The notes below the pieces were generated by a model. That model had not been told where the DNA came from, searched no databases, and saw nothing but the letters and a program-made list of their open reading frames with translations. Position numbers and translations under genes: made by a program. This document shows, piece after piece, positions 1 to 34,903 of a stretch of DNA of 64,000 nt; the stretch's first letter is position 1, and each line of letters starts with the position of its first letter. The stretch spans positions 434,001 through 498,000 of the forward strand of contig CANNAN010000001.1 in assembly GCA_947502635.1 (NCBI GenBank), given 5' to 3'. The stretch is from an uncultured Flavobacteriaceae bacterium (GTDB taxonomy: Bacteria > Bacteroidota > Bacteroidia > Flavobacteriales > Flavobacteriaceae).

Positions 1-102
1 ATTTACGCCTATTAAATTAATCCCAGATTCTCTTTGTATTTGTGAATAGCAGTTGTAGGTATATATTAGTAGAAACGAAATAATAATTTTTCTTAAAATC
101 AT
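1..102 (-). CDS. Secreted protein, N-terminal fragment (runs off left edge)
   Basis: An open frame starts with ATG at 102 and is still open at position 1, giving 34 residues. It begins MILRKIIISFLLIYTYNCYS followed by QIQRE. This is a good signal peptide: Arg-Lys, a hydrophobic core, then Ser-Gln, a common cleavage context in Bacteroidetes. The remaining visible residues do not identify a family. The call is supported by a promoter-like region just upstream (129-193) with the same architecture as the one in front of the FG-GAP gene at 213-1694, so the two are probably co-regulated. Whether it is a lipoprotein is unclear; the Cys at residue 18 lacks a normal lipobox. Confidence 0.6.
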   Translation of the reverse strand, partial: MILRKIIISFLLIYTYNCYSQIQRESGINLIGVN

Positions 103-128: not shown

Positions 129-193
129 CAAAACTAATTTGAGGCTTATAAAATGGCATGGTATATTGTTTCGGTAATAAGCACTATTGTTTC
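129..193 (-). promoter_or_regulatory. Promoter with tandem GAAACAATA repeats, left-edge gene
   Basis: On the minus strand GAAACAATAG (184-193) and GAAACAATAT (163-172) form a direct repeat with start-to-start spacing of 21 bp. TAGTTTTG (129-136), an exact match to the Bacteroidetes -7 consensus TAnnTTTG, lies downstream. The distance from the proximal repeat to the -7 element equals that at the 1726-1790 promoter (27 bp between corresponding edges). No convincing -33 element is present, consistent with an activator-dependent promoter. The activator is unknown. Confidence 0.6.
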
Positions 194-212
194 AAAAGGC
201 TACAAATGAATG

Positions 213-1694
213 CTACTGTTTAATAAACTTGAGTGTTGTTACCTTATTGATTGAGAGAAGTTTAATAAGGTATATGCCTTTTGTGTAATGACTTGTATCT
301 ATATTTAGATTTTGGGTATTGGTATGGGTTTTCGAGTCTATTAGTTTTCCTAGGGCATCATATATATTTAGGCTAACTGGGGTGCTAGCTGCATTTAAAT
401 TCAATGTAATATGACCACTGGTTGGATTCGGGTATATTGAAAAAGCCTTACCAAAATCATTGCCCTGGGTACTCAATACATCAAGGTTACTATAAATGCG
501 AGCATGCCCTGAATTGATACCGCCAGCATCGTTTAAATTTGCTCCTATGGCTAAAATACTTCCGTCGTCACTTATACTTATTGAACGGCCTGAACGATCA
601 CTAAGAGCTTCTCCATCTATGTCGTTATCTATTTGTACCCAATTGGACGATTGGTTTTTGTACACTCTAACGTGTCCAGCATCTATATCGGTTCCATCAT
701 TAAAATAACCACCTACAGCTACGATATCTCCCTCACCATTTAGACTTATTGAGATACCAAAATCGTCACCTGAACCTTCCCCGTCGATATCGCTCCCTAT
801 TTGTACCCAAGTCCCTGATTGATTTTCGAACACACGTGCGTGCCCAATACTATTATTATCGATAGCACCAACGGCTACAATAGTGCCTTCGTTATTTAAA
901 CTTACCGAAATTCCGAAGCGGTCATTGTTGGCTTCCCCATCAATGTCGCTCCCTATTTGTACCCAAGTCCCTAATTGATTTTCGTAAACCCGAACTTGTC
1001 CGTTGCCAGATCCAGCCCCATCATTAAAAGGTGCTCCTATAGCAACTATACTCCCGTCTTGATTTAAACTTACAGAATAACCTGAATTGTCGTCTGCTGC
1101 TTCTCCATCAATATCATCGCCAATTTGAGTCCAGATTCCCGATAGATTTTCATAAATACGCACATGTCCACTGTTTCCAATAGTTGTATCATTATCAGGT
1201 GCTCCAATGGCAACTATGTTTCCATCACCGCTTAAACTAACAGAAAACCCCGAGTGGTCTGATAAATTTTCACCAATAATACTGCTGCCTATTTGTGTCC
1301 AGTTTCCCAGTTCATTTTTAAATACCCGAGCTTGCCCAACTTCAAATTTTCCTGGAAGAGTATGGTCTGGTGCTCCAATGGCAATTGTAGAACCATCATC
1401 ACTTAAACTTATTGAAAAACCAGATTTGTCACTTGATGACTCACCAGATATATCATTTCCTAACTGAACCCAGTTTCCCGATTGGTTTTCATAAATACGA
1501 ACTTGGCCTGAAGTGCTTCCAGCTTCACTGTTAAAAGGGGCTGCTATGGCTACGATGGTGCCATCGGCATTTAAACTTAATGAATGGCCAAACTGTTCAT
1601 TGTCGGTTTCTCCGTCTATATCTAATCCAGATTGCACCCATTGTCCAAAAGTTATAAAAGGAATAATTAAAGCTAAATGTGTAATTTTTTTCAT
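213..1694 (-). CDS. Secreted FG-GAP-like beta-propeller protein with T9SS sorting domain
   Basis: A 493-residue protein with a signal peptide (residues 1-17, ending FGQW). About six to seven imperfect repeats of roughly 55-60 residues follow (about 20-400). Each has the pattern WVQIGxDIDGEA, a D-x-x-G-x-S-V-S-L-N stretch, IVAIGAP, and GHVRVYEN. These resemble FG-GAP/integrin-alpha-like propeller blades. The end is a type A T9SS C-terminal domain (about 415-493) with YPNPTSG and a final KFIKQ, so the protein should be exported across the outer membrane and anchored or released. The role is unknown; adhesion or surface binding is plausible. It lies downstream of HTCS 1 on the same strand but has its own promoter (1726-1790), so it need not belong to the sugar locus. 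Confidence 0.8.
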   Translation of the reverse strand: MKKITHLALIIPFITFGQWVQSGLDIDGETDNEQFGHSLSLNADGTIVAIAAPFNSEAGSTSGQVRIYENQSGNWVQLGNDISGESSSDKSGFSISLSDDGSTIAIGAPDHTLPGKFEVGQARVFKNELGNWTQIGSSIIGENLSDHSGFSVSLSGDGNIVAIGAPDNDTTIGNSGHVRIYENLSGIWTQIGDDIDGEAADDNSGYSVSLNQDGSIVAIGAPFNDGAGSGNGQVRVYENQLGTWVQIGSDIDGEANNDRFGISVSLNNEGTIVAVGAIDNNSIGHARVFENQSGTWVQIGSDIDGEGSGDDFGISISLNGEGDIVAVGGYFNDGTDIDAGHVRVYKNQSSNWVQIDNDIDGEALSDRSGRSISISDDGSILAIGANLNDAGGINSGHARIYSNLDVLSTQGNDFGKAFSIYPNPTSGHITLNLNAASTPVSLNIYDALGKLIDSKTHTNTQNLNIDTSHYTKGIYLIKLLSINKVTTLKFIKQ

Positions 1695-1725
1695 AAGTAC
1701 TACTATAATATATGTTAAGTAGCAC

Positions 1726-1790
1726 CAAAACTATAGTGTAGACCAAAAGGAGGATTACACTATTGTTTCTAATGTATGACCTATTGTTTC
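1726..1790 (-). promoter_or_regulatory. Promoter with tandem GAAACAATAG repeats, FG-GAP gene
   Basis: On the minus strand GAAACAATAG occurs at 1781-1790 and again at 1760-1769, 21 bp apart. TAGTTTTG (1726-1733) matches the TAnnTTTG -7 element and lies 32 bp upstream of the ATG at 1694. The same repeats, 21-bp period, repeat-to-(-7) distance and -7 octamer occur at 129-193. The 21-bp direct-repeat spacing is typical of activators that bind as a head-to-tail pair (AraC or LytTR type), which is inference. Confidence 0.65.
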
Positions 1791-1805
1791 AATAGCCCGT
1801 AATCA

Positions 1806-4800
1806 TTAGTTTTGAATGTGGTTTTCTCTAAAAGAAGTAGGGGAGACGCCAACAACTTTTTTAAATGCTTTAGAAAAATATGTAGGTGATTCAAAGCCTG
1901 TTTCATAAGCTATTTCACTTACATGGAGCGATGTTGTAGCTAGAATTTCTTTGGCTTTCTCAATACGGACAAAATTGATGTAATTGGTTATGGACTGTCC
2001 TGTTAAAGATTTTATTTTTCTGTGTAGTTGTGATCGGCTGGTTGATAACTTTTTAGCTAATTGATCAATGGTTAAACGTTGTTCTTTATTTAAGGCATAT
2101 TCTTGTATTTCTTTAATAAAATCTATATCTAATTTATTAATATCAATATCTTTTTTATCAGATTCTTTTAATTGTAGCAACTCACTAAAATATTCTATTT
2201 TATGTTGTTGTTTATCAAATAGATTCTTTATAATCAACAGTAATTCTTCTTCATTGAAAGGCTTGAACAAATAAGCATCTATGCCCAATTTGTAGCCTTT
2301 TATTTTATCTTCTACTTGGGTTCTGGCACTTATAATAACAAAAGGGATGTGCGAGGTTTTAAGATTCTCCTTTATATGTTTACAAAATTCAAAACCATCC
2401 ATTTCGGGCATCATAATATCACTTATAATAAAATCAATTTCTTTATTTTCGGCTAGCTTTATACCCTCTTTACCATTTTTGGCTGTATATATAATATAGA
2501 ATTCACCCAAGAGCTCTTTTACATAGTTTCTTATTTGACTGTTGTCTTCAACGATTAAAATAGAATGCTTTACTTTTTCTGTAATTATATCTGGTTCGCC
2601 ATTGTCATCATCGTTTTCAGAGTTGTTTCTATCTTCAATAAAAGGTAATGTATAATTTAATGTTTCTTGTGTTTTAACAAGATTCTTTATTGGAAGCTGA
2701 ATATTGAATTGGGTTCCTTTATTTAATTCGCTTGCAACATCAATATGCCCGCCCATTAATAGCACCAGTTCTTTTGTTAGAGACATTCCAATACCACTTC
2801 CTAGGTTTTCATCTAAATCGAATGTTTTGTAATAACGATTAAAAATATGAGGGAGATCTTCTGGTTTAATTCCTTTTCCGGTATCTGAAATTACAATTTT
2901 TAATGTATTATTTTGTTGAAAGACGGTTACATTTATAGACCCATTTTCTGGTGTGAATTTCAAGGCATTAGACAGTATATTGTTTAATGCTTTTTGTAAT
3001 TTATCATCATCAAAATCCATTTTAATTGATGAATGTTGCGAGTTAAATTTTAAATGTATTTGCTTTGATTCTGCTAAGGGTTTGTATAAAGAAATAGACT
3101 TTTTTAAGAAGTTAATAATGTCGCCGTTTTTATAATAAACCTCCATCTTTTTAGCATCTAAAGAGACTAAATCCAGCATTTGATTAACCAAATGTAATAA
3201 TTGATCACTGTTTTTTTCTATATTTTTGACCTTATAATCTATACTTTCTTCTAATCTAGATTTACCTATGTTTTTAGAAAGTCCTTTTATTATAGTAATA
3301 GGTGTTCTAAACTCGTGCGAAATATTGGCATACATTTTAGATTGTAACTCATTGATTTCTTTCGTTTTTTGAGTTTTTAATTCAGCAACCTTACTTTTTA
3401 CAAAAAGATATAGCACTAATATAATACCAGATACTATAAACAGGGCATATAAAATATATGCGAGTGTTGTTCTATACCAAGGGGGGGAAATTTGAATATT
3501 AATTTGAAGTGCATTGGTAAAGTCTGATTCGTCCAGATAGGCATTGTAAACGGGCTTTACCTTTAAAACATGATTTCCGTAAGAAATATTAGAAAAATAA
3601 GCTGTTTGCTTTTCGGTAGTTTTCCATTTGTCAGATCCCAATTTATAGGCATAATTGACATTGGAAATATGGCTATAATCGAAGTTAGAAAAACGAAGGG
3701 AAAAATCGTTTTGTAAATAAGATAATGTTATTTTATCTTCAAAAGGAGCTTTAAAATTAGATAAGTAGTCTTTGTGTTTTCCATTTATTAATATATCGGT
3801 TATTATAGGTTTTGGTTTTTCTTTATACATAGGGTGTTCTTTTACATCAATACTTTGAACACCCTCATATCCGCCAAAATAAAGAGTCCCAATTTCTCTA
3901 TCATAATAAGCAGAAGTGAATAAATATGAGTCAGATGCAAGTCCATCACCTGTTTTGTAATGTGTGAGCCGTTTTGCCAATTGATTATATACATAAATTC
4001 CATCATTGATAGTGGACATCCATATATTATTTTTAAAATCGCACCTTACTGCCATTATTTTTTTATCAAAAAGCTGTTTTTCATTCCGTAATCGAATAAA
4101 ACTCTTGTCTTTTTCATTGTATTTTGCCATGCCATTTTCTGTAGCAATCCAAATGTTTTCTTCATTATCTTGCGTTAAAGAAAACACAATATTTGAGTTT
4201 AATGAATGGATATCTGTACTTGTATACGTATAATGTTTAAAGGGAAGTGGTTGTTTGTTTAGATCTTGCAAGGATACATTTGGTAGCATAAACACGCCAT
4301 AAGTAGCAGTAGCAATCCAAAGGCGGTCTTTCGTGTCAATAAGCATTTTTAAAATCTTGGATTCTCCTATATCAGAACCCGTAGGTAGTTTTATACGTTG
4401 AATTACTTTTAGGTTTTCATCTACAATGCTAATGCCAGAAGACCAAGTTCCTACCCAAATTCTATTTAGATTATCCTGCTCTAAGTCGTAAATTCTAAAA
4501 TTGGTATAATTAGTAGATTCCTTTAATGAAATATCTTCATAAATACTGTCATTTTTAATCTTAAATAAGTCACCCTGTACATTGGTAGCCCATAACCAAC
4601 TTCCAAAGTTGCGTAAAGCCAAAACATGGTCATTAAGTAAGGCAAAATGATTATTTGTGTTATATAAACCTTTACGCCCTCCTAAATACAAGGATTCATT
4701 ATGTTTTTCAATTTTTCTAGCCAAAAAAGGAATAGGCGTTTTTTTAAATAAAGGAAGTTTTAAAGATTCTCTATAAATACCTTTGGATGTGCCTATCCAT

Positions 4801-5672
4801 AAATTATTTTGATTATCGATAAATAAGGTATTAATACTAGCTGTTTCAGTTTTTATATTAGAAGTAATTCTTACTAATTTGTTTTTTTTAGGACTAACAG
4901 TATATAAATTATAGTTTGAAGCAAAGTAAACTAAACTATCATTTTGTACAGAATAGTATATTTCATCTTCAACAGATACTTCATTGTGAATTTTATTACC
5001 TTTATAAAAAAGTAGCTTATTATTAAATGACAAAACTAAATTTTCCTGTACAACACTTATCATTTTAATCGTGTCATCAAAATTTTGAGTGAATAGTATT
5101 TTATCATCAGGAATACTATATTTATACAAAACTTTTCTATTAGTAAACCATAAATAATTACCATCTACAGCCATTAGACTAACAGTGGCGCCTTTATCTA
5201 TTTTTTTTAGATTCTGTGTTTTTTTGTTAAAAGTATAAATCCCTTCATCTGTAACCATTGCAAGTAAATTAGAAGATACCTTTTGAATTCTGAATATAAG
5301 AGGAAACATTTTGTTGTTACGATTCACCACTTTTTTAATCTCCTTTTTTTTAGGATTAAAAACGTTTAAACCACCTCCTTGGGTTGCTATCCAATAGCTA
5401 TTATTGGAAAGAATTTCTATTTGATTAATTCCATTGGCAGAAAGCGAATTTTTATTTTCTATAGAACGACGAAGTGCATCAAATTTATACCCGTCATATC
5501 TAAAAAGACCATTATTAGTTCCTGCCCAAATAAAGCCATAGTCATCTTGTGCAATCGAAGAGATATATTCGTTACTTAAGTCTTCTATTTTTTGAAAGCG
5601 CTTTTCATTTTGAGATACTCCAGCAGTAACAATTAAAAAGAATAAAATGGAGGTTAAAATATTATGGGGCAT
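1806..5672 (-). CDS. Hybrid two-component system sensor/regulator (HTCS 1)
   Basis: A 1288-residue one-protein signalling system. The order is signal peptide (1-20), periplasmic two-bladed Reg_prop-type propeller repeats (about 25-620), a Y_Y_Y domain (about 655-725), one membrane helix (about 735-758), HisKA with SHEFRTP (phospho-acceptor His at 786), HATPase (DTGKGI, GSGIGMSL), receiver with ISDIMMPEMDG (phospho-acceptor Asp at 1085), and a C-terminal AraC-type DNA-binding domain (about 1180-1288, ending FRENHIQN). All expected catalytic residues are present. HTCS proteins sense PUL oligosaccharides in the periplasm and activate nearby genes. This one points away from the main locus and could control either the PUL or the minus-strand genes to its left. 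The ligand cannot be read from the sequence. Confidence 0.95.
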   Translation of the reverse strand: MPHNILTSILFFLIVTAGVSQNEKRFQKIEDLSNEYISSIAQDDYGFIWAGTNNGLFRYDGYKFDALRRSIENKNSLSANGINQIEILSNNSYWIATQGGGLNVFNPKKKEIKKVVNRNNKMFPLIFRIQKVSSNLLAMVTDEGIYTFNKKTQNLKKIDKGATVSLMAVDGNYLWFTNRKVLYKYSIPDDKILFTQNFDDTIKMISVVQENLVLSFNNKLLFYKGNKIHNEVSVEDEIYYSVQNDSLVYFASNYNLYTVSPKKNKLVRITSNIKTETASINTLFIDNQNNLWIGTSKGIYRESLKLPLFKKTPIPFLARKIEKHNESLYLGGRKGLYNTNNHFALLNDHVLALRNFGSWLWATNVQGDLFKIKNDSIYEDISLKESTNYTNFRIYDLEQDNLNRIWVGTWSSGISIVDENLKVIQRIKLPTGSDIGESKILKMLIDTKDRLWIATATYGVFMLPNVSLQDLNKQPLPFKHYTYTSTDIHSLNSNIVFSLTQDNEENIWIATENGMAKYNEKDKSFIRLRNEKQLFDKKIMAVRCDFKNNIWMSTINDGIYVYNQLAKRLTHYKTGDGLASDSYLFTSAYYDREIGTLYFGGYEGVQSIDVKEHPMYKEKPKPIITDILINGKHKDYLSNFKAPFEDKITLSYLQNDFSLRFSNFDYSHISNVNYAYKLGSDKWKTTEKQTAYFSNISYGNHVLKVKPVYNAYLDESDFTNALQINIQISPPWYRTTLAYILYALFIVSGIILVLYLFVKSKVAELKTQKTKEINELQSKMYANISHEFRTPITIIKGLSKNIGKSRLEESIDYKVKNIEKNSDQLLHLVNQMLDLVSLDAKKMEVYYKNGDIINFLKKSISLYKPLAESKQIHLKFNSQHSSIKMDFDDDKLQKALNNILSNALKFTPENGSINVTVFQQNNTLKIVISDTGKGIKPEDLPHIFNRYYKTFDLDENLGSGIGMSLTKELVLLMGGHIDVASELNKGTQFNIQLPIKNLVKTQETLNYTLPFIEDRNNSENDDDNGEPDIITEKVKHSILIVEDNSQIRNYVKELLGEFYIIYTAKNGKEGIKLAENKEIDFIISDIMMPEMDGFEFCKHIKENLKTSHIPFVIISARTQVEDKIKGYKLGIDAYLFKPFNEEELLLIIKNLFDKQQHKIEYFSELLQLKESDKKDIDINKLDIDFIKEIQEYALNKEQRLTIDQLAKKLSTSRSQLHRKIKSLTGQSITNYINFVRIEKAKEILATTSLHVSEIAYETGFESPTYFSKAFKKVVGVSPTSFRENHIQN

Positions 5673-34857: not shown

Positions 34858-34903
34858 CGGAAACGTTTTCGGAAAAAAAAAGCTGATTTCCGAAACAATA
34901 TCA
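34858..34903. promoter_or_regulatory. Paired LacI-type operators upstream of symporter operon
   Basis: CGGAAACGTTTTCG (34858-34871) is a near-perfect palindrome and matches 13 of 14 bases of the site at 29774. A weaker second copy, CCGAAACAATATCA, lies at 34890-34903, 32 bp downstream start to start, close to the 31-bp spacing at SusC2. The symporter ATG is at 34973. Confidence 0.62.

Follow-up and report, generated by a model that had tools for sequence, protein, structure and literature searches.

The left edge of the 64,000-nucleotide stretch of DNA analysed here (the window), from an uncultured Flavobacteriaceae bacterium, raises the question of which regulator acts at two minus-strand promoters that carry the same tandem repeat. 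An earlier note on this DNA had described two such promoters sharing a layout of repeat and box, and the analysis confirmed them, with exact coordinates and spacings. The features concerned are as follows.

1..102, minus strand: start of the left-edge gene, encoding a 601-aa T9SS-tailed protein and continuing outside the window (L008:12297-14102); the start is a presumed one
129..136, minus strand: -7 box TAGTTTTG of promoter A, of the sigma-A TAnnTTTG type (consensus from PMC9723704)
164..172, minus strand: proximal half-site GAAACAATA of promoter A, kept in the genus genomes G306 and G305
185..193, minus strand: distal half-site GAAACAATA of promoter A, kept in G306 and G305
213..1694, minus strand: FG-GAP protein with a T9SS sorting tail (Pfam), putative target of promoter B
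1726..1733, minus strand: -7 box TAGTTTTG of promoter B, present in G306 and gone in G305 along with the FG-GAP gene
1761..1769, minus strand: proximal half-site GAAACAATA of promoter B, kept in G306 and G305
1782..1790, minus strand: distal half-site GAAACAATA of promoter B, kept in G306 and G305
1806..5672, minus strand: HTCS1, with Reg_prop propeller sensor, HisKA, HATPase_c, receiver and AraC-type HTH (Pfam), proposed as the regulator from site co-occurrence and covariation

Both promoters have the layout GAAACAATA-N12-GAAACAATA-N27-TAGTTTTG, with a repeat offset of 21 bp and a gap of 27 nt between repeat and box, and the proximal repeat lies 61 nt from the start codon in promoter A (ATG at window 102-100) and 66 nt in promoter B (ATG at 1694). 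The longest frame of the left-edge gene opens at window 159, within the promoter, and the start at 102 is therefore a presumptive one. Outside these elements, the identity between the two regions is about that expected by chance (11/40 upstream, 4/12 in the 12-nt spacer, 9/27 in the 27-nt gap and 10/40 downstream), in agreement with the claim that the rest of the two regions is dissimilar. The TAGTTTTG of both promoters matches the flavobacterial sigma-A -7 box, TAnnTTTG, which spans positions -12 to -5 in Flavobacterium psychrophilum (PMC9723704). When the box is placed at these positions, the distal half-site would span roughly -69 to -61 and the proximal one -48 to -40. The two promoters resemble those of F. 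psychrophilum in their -7 box (PMC9723704), but here a tandem operator precedes the box at constant spacing, and the transcription starts are predicted ones.

Predicted HTCS operators with direct repeats of about 21 bp are already known from Bacteroides (PMC3878776), and the two elements are therefore best read as another HTCS operator of this known type. In B. thetaiotaomicron, motifs were predicted for 16 of 36 HTCSs, all of them direct repeats with a mean spacing of 21 bp (Ravcheev et al. 2013, PMC3878776), and that paper takes the dimer to sit on one DNA face, two turns apart, with similar HTHs going with similar motifs. The elements described here share with those operators the two-half-site direct repeat of about 21 bp and the location of the promoters near the HTCS gene, as HTCS1 lies directly upstream of promoter B and promoter A is 1.6 kb further. 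However, the half-site letters are new as far as can be seen from PMC3878776, and the available part of that paper makes no mention of a constant 27-nt distance to the -7 box. Nothing apparently related was seen among the literature matches listed for the 9-mer GAAACAATA; PMC12125979 deals with XylRA in Vibrio.

The two elements are very probably operator-promoters of HTCS1, to which HTCS1 would bind and which it would activate. At the araBAD promoter of Escherichia coli, AraC occupies two half-sites arranged head-to-tail at a spacing of about 21 bp, immediately upstream of where polymerase binds; the arrangement here is alike, although HTCS1 carries its DNA-binding domain on a membrane-bound kinase and the box is the Bacteroidota one. 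The most probable mode is activation by a tandem dimer of HTCS1 that occupies about -69 to -40. The propeller sensor domain would detect a signal, the kinase would phosphorylate the receiver fused to it, and the HTCS dimer would grip the two GAAACAATA half-sites head-to-tail with its pair of AraC-type DNA-binding domains, two turns apart on one helix face. As the proximal half-site ends near -40, bound HTCS1 would then aid sigma-A RNA polymerase at the -7 box TAGTTTTG. The predicted targets are the FG-GAP/T9SS gene and the gene for the T9SS-tailed protein that heads six same-strand genes.

Orthologs of HTCS1 (E at most 1e-200) were found in three of the 12 genomes of the genus, namely the own genome, G306 (94%) and G305 (75%), with 54 candidates scored per genome as part of all candidates. 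Tandem sites with at most one mismatch numbered two in the own genome, two in G306 and three in G305, while the other nine genomes gave two matches in total, both within ORFs, against two control matches. Non-coding tandem sites are limited to the three genomes that have an HTCS1 ortholog, and the T9SS protein of promoter A is found in the same three. G306 is syntenic across the stretch fetched. G305 has no FG-GAP gene, and the operator at that place is box-less. Comparison of the T9SS-gene promoters of G000 and G305 showed that the half-sites are identical at 17-18 of 18 letters and the gap at 12-16 of 27. The T9SS target gene of G305 is tandem-duplicated (L099:8094-12089), each copy with its own 9-12-9-27 operator followed by TAATTTCG, which agrees with the TAnnTTTG -7 box.

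In G306, the left-edge T9SS protein has a further, unlinked copy (L125:8079-12525, 74%), with an AraC/DUF6597 regulator after it, a similar-looking regulator before it and a collagen-like gene nearby; the GAAACAATA tandem is absent there. In a phylum sample of 395 genomes including the own one, homologs of the left-edge protein occur in 11 other genomes, at 12 loci, and nothing like the GAAACAATA or GTTACATAT motif was seen upstream of these 12. One of them, a distant homolog from another family (L124, gene at 1468-3285), is preceded at about 180 nt by an exact direct repeat of 14 bp with a 21-bp offset and other letters. An exact search of 299 family genomes returned one tandem in G294, which lies inside an ORF and was set aside as chance, and one control match (G259).

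More distant homologs of HTCS1 (E at most 1e-180, 31-44% identity) were found in 11 genomes beyond the own one among 397 of the family, with two candidates scored per genome, and 18 kb was fetched around each. In G724 (44% identity), an exact GAAACAATA tandem at 21 bp is followed after 27 nt by TAGCTTTG, before a divergent T9SS-tailed gene, and in G156 a near copy of the tandem lies upstream of the HTCS gene itself. When the loci were scanned for the geometry irrespective of letters (offset 21, gap 27, TAnnTTTG), repeats of 8-9 of 9 letters were found at 6 of 71 non-coding boxes near the homologs, compared with 0 of 208 boxes in 20 control regions and 2 of 62 in ten HTCS loci, all from the own genome, the last two matches being the known sites. 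At a threshold of at least 7 of 9, the numbers were 9/71 and 3/208, with two of the nine seemingly unrelated. A survey of 620 offset-gap cells gave the highest count, six, at (21,27), and the next were adjacent cells at offset 21.

The half-sites in six of the homologs (G211, G120, G781, G218, G026 and G288) have a different set of letters, resembling GTTACATAT. A scan with both motifs and a TAnnTT box gave 11 matches at 10 of the 11 homolog loci, 13-294 bp from an HTCS end, against one match in 20 control regions of 20 kb, a comparison in which the GTTACATAT motif was derived from the same sites that are counted and all control regions belong to the own genome. The sites of G285 and G074, both from one genus, are weak (14/18 letters), and the locus fetched around the homolog of G054 (32%) has no such site. 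Relaxing the scan by omitting the box gave three further chance-like matches in seven loci (L182 on the minus strand, L189, and a second one in L181).

The half-site letters track the class of the HTH domain, the two letter classes matching two HTH classes. Among the GAAACAATA group, the HTH identity to HTCS1 is 96/97 for G306, 82/97 for G305, 58/97 for G724, 46/97 for G156 and 54/97 for both G285 and G074; the corresponding values are 29-35 for the GTTACATAT group and 34 for G054. In a rapidly built tree covering 49 HTCSs, from which two of 27 distant HTCS loci were left out for length (L023 and L034), the 14 clade members fell into one group (SH-aLRT 100); this unity alone is unsurprising, since the 14 were picked by similarity to HTCS1. 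Within the group, the GAAACAATA and GTTACATAT letter classes form two subclades (SH-aLRT 100 each), with G054 outside both. The suggestion in the earlier note that HTCS1 next door, as an AraC-type activator, is one candidate is favoured by these results: operator and ortholog occur together in 3 of the 12 genus genomes, the geometry adjoins 10 of the 11 distant homologs, and the repeat letters shift with the HTH domain.

It is very unlikely that another AraC-type regulator, either HTCS2 or an unlinked one, acts at the sites. AraC-type HTH domains are common, and the own genome has 11 HTCSs (HTCS1 and ten paralogs); moreover, a GAF-domain AraC-type regulator gene lies directly behind HTCS and tandem site in three of the six GTTACATAT loci (L187:11018-11920, L188:5483-6379 and L190:5711-6640). 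However, this gene is not the next one in G211, G120 and G781. For HTCS2, which belongs to the PUL to the right of HTCS1 (with fucosidase, sulfatases and SusC/SusD), the HTH matches that of HTCS1 at 33 of 98 residues, and its PUL promoters lack the site: some 21-bp repeats of 9/10 or 10/12 letters occur beside HTCS2, ahead of 16021 and 62419, but all of them lack a box 15-35 nt away. The earlier statement that the PUL holds no second exact tandem was borne out by the same promoters. Furthermore, G305 retains the sites and HTCS1, but no HTCS2-type PUL within the 20 kb fetched. A Y_Y_Y match (Pfam, E 0.001) is present in HTCS2 and in neither HTCS1 nor its G305 ortholog.

That HTCS1 binds the repeats and represses is very unlikely, although the B. 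thetaiotaomicron HTCS BT2391 has been reported as a repressor (PMC11253607). The sites lie upstream of the -7 box and end near -40, which would be the usual place of an activator, and a protein bound at about -69 to -40 could touch the polymerase. In addition, HTCS1 carries the consensus SHIP, part of the S/CHIP-DK signature that has been linked to phosphorylation-dependent DNA binding, whereas BT2391 deviates from it (PMC11253607). Activation by HTCS1, presumably under phosphorylation control, thus remains the preferred mode.

Binding of the repeats by a LytTR-type response regulator is highly improbable. Such regulators recognise direct repeats about 9 bp long at a distance of 21-22 bp or so, and the spacing here fits, and G305 has a kinase and a LytTR response regulator upstream of the HTCS, the LytTR gene being 1.8 kb away. 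However, neither the proteins scanned near the sites of the own genome nor the scanned neighbours of the distant homologs showed a LytTR domain; linkage to the sites was seen in G305 only, among scanned neighbours that are part of all neighbours. The sites instead go with the HTCS at 10 of the 11 distant loci, their letters change with its HTH, and by eye the 9-mer fits the LytTR consensus poorly. The earlier note had left the activator as AraC or LytTR type, and of these two the former is favoured and the latter disfavoured, with HTCS1 as the preferred protein.

Chance can be practically dismissed: short repeats are plentiful in A+T-rich sequence, and both strands of the window hold 92 tandem 9-mers at offsets of 10-40 bp, compared with 36-56 in random sequences, but no other word-plus-offset (10-40 bp) occurs at two places in the window, six random sequences gave none, the flanks match at chance level, and geometry and letters are preserved in other genomes and genera. 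The tandem was found in none of 100 shuffled windows. In the own genome (5,439,710 bases, 81 contigs), the exact tandem has two matches, which are the two promoters. Allowing two mismatches added five matches, all within ORFs, against three for a reversed-pattern control. The genome search for the composite that the earlier note had proposed gave, with TAnnTTTG and at most three mismatches, two matches and no control match; the two are promoters A and B, 5′ of genes, and no third composite site was found in the own genome up to three mismatches. With two promoters and no third site in the own genome, the regulon looks small and local. The idea of a separate regulon of secreted proteins holds in that the first genes of both promoters encode T9SS-tailed proteins, but its extent is small and local, with two promoters; a genome-wide regulon was dismissed, as the composite yields two sites only and the five looser tandem matches sit in ORFs. 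A lone GAAACAATA lies before an SSF transporter gene (window 34860-34900), with a partial repeat 20 bp off and no -7 box at a fitting distance.

Repeats of similar spacing were also found near the other HTCSs of the own genome. In the intergenic pieces near the 11 HTCSs, 7 of 13 exact 10-bp direct repeats (offsets 12-60) are at 20-22 bp, compared with 2 of 25 in 20 control regions; the seven include promoter B, come from 6 of the 11 neighbourhoods, and some are possibly chance. Repeats matching at 11 of 12 letters gave 8 of 31 at 20-22 bp near HTCSs and 3 of 53 in the control. This enrichment suggests that the 21-bp rule of Bacteroides probably holds in this genome too. Three candidate operators near other HTCS genes (L142:12292-12330, L144:7641-7680 and L147:9123-9155) are intergenic exact direct repeats of at least 10 bp at 20-21 bp, with differing letters.

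The left-edge T9SS gene heads six closely spaced same-strand genes (gaps -4 to 73 nt), a putative operon in which it is followed, in order, by genes for a protein with no Pfam match, a YadA-head/Peptidase_S74 protein, a short T9SS-tailed protein, a collagen-like protein (Pfam Collagen score slightly under the cut-off) and a SIMPL-domain protein. In the left-edge protein itself, Pfam and NCBIfam recognised no named domain except the T9SS tail, and a search of the PDB matched solely the tail region; the idea of a glycoside hydrolase, raised by eye from an SNELWN stretch, was dropped for want of search support.

The neighbourhoods of the clade members are poor in sugar-uptake genes. SusC/SusD was found in none of the 14 stretches fetched around them, which differ in reach: opposite the targets they cover 0.3 kb for the own genome and about 4 kb for G306 and G305. 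Other HTCS loci of the own genome, by contrast, have SusC in 7 of 9 and SusD in 5 of 9, and the controls in 4 and 2 of 20, respectively. The first SusC of the own PUL starts at window 18021, 12.3 kb from HTCS1 and outside the scanned stretch, in a PUL with its own HTCS2. The B. thetaiotaomicron HTCSs analysed in PMC3878776 adjoin susC/susD loci, a co-location that was a selection criterion there and not a property of every HTCS, whereas the first targets here are T9SS-secreted proteins.

Collagen-like proteins, on the other hand, are encoded at 8 of the 14 clade loci, a count in which the own genome and G306 are near-duplicates, and at none of the nine other HTCS loci or the 20 controls. In all six loci of the GTTACATAT group, the collagen-like gene is the first, second or third behind the HTCS, and Kelch propellers are present in four of the six among the genes scanned (G218, G026, G781 and G288). 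The own collagen-like protein aligns with that of G218 over nearly the full length (75/220 positions), and the collagen-like target therefore looks conserved. The two proteins (L008:7691-8317 and L187:11975-12601) have a common C-terminal domain across genera, with NVIYSDW near its start and SYEEV near its end. Other findings speak against a tighter relation among the targets: the FG-GAP protein has no clear homology to the Kelch protein of G218, the match between the G724 target and the left-edge protein is confined to the tail, and no collagen-like protein was seen in the fetched stretches of G305, G724, G156, G285, G074 and G054.

The absence of SusC/SusD from the 14 stretches and the collagen-like proteins in 8 of the 14 suggest that the role of the clade may lie in the control of surface proteins and not of sugar uptake. 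The HTCS1 clade may well have left the control of polysaccharide uptake to govern secreted and surface proteins through a rigid 9-12-9-27-TAnnTTTG promoter, with letters co-evolving with the HTH. The surface proteins would then plausibly be collagen-like proteins with the shared C-terminal domain, FG-GAP or Kelch propellers and T9SS proteins. At the level of titles and abstract openings, no description of an HTCS clade tied to collagen-like and T9SS proteins was found in the literature. For an HTCS from outside gut Bacteroides, a regulator candidate is now available together with exact half-sites and natural variants that match, and the recognition of operator by HTH becomes directly testable between two letter classes, GAAACAATA and GTTACATAT. 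The results also suggest a clade of HTCSs associated with collagen-like and T9SS-secreted proteins and not with SusC/SusD uptake.
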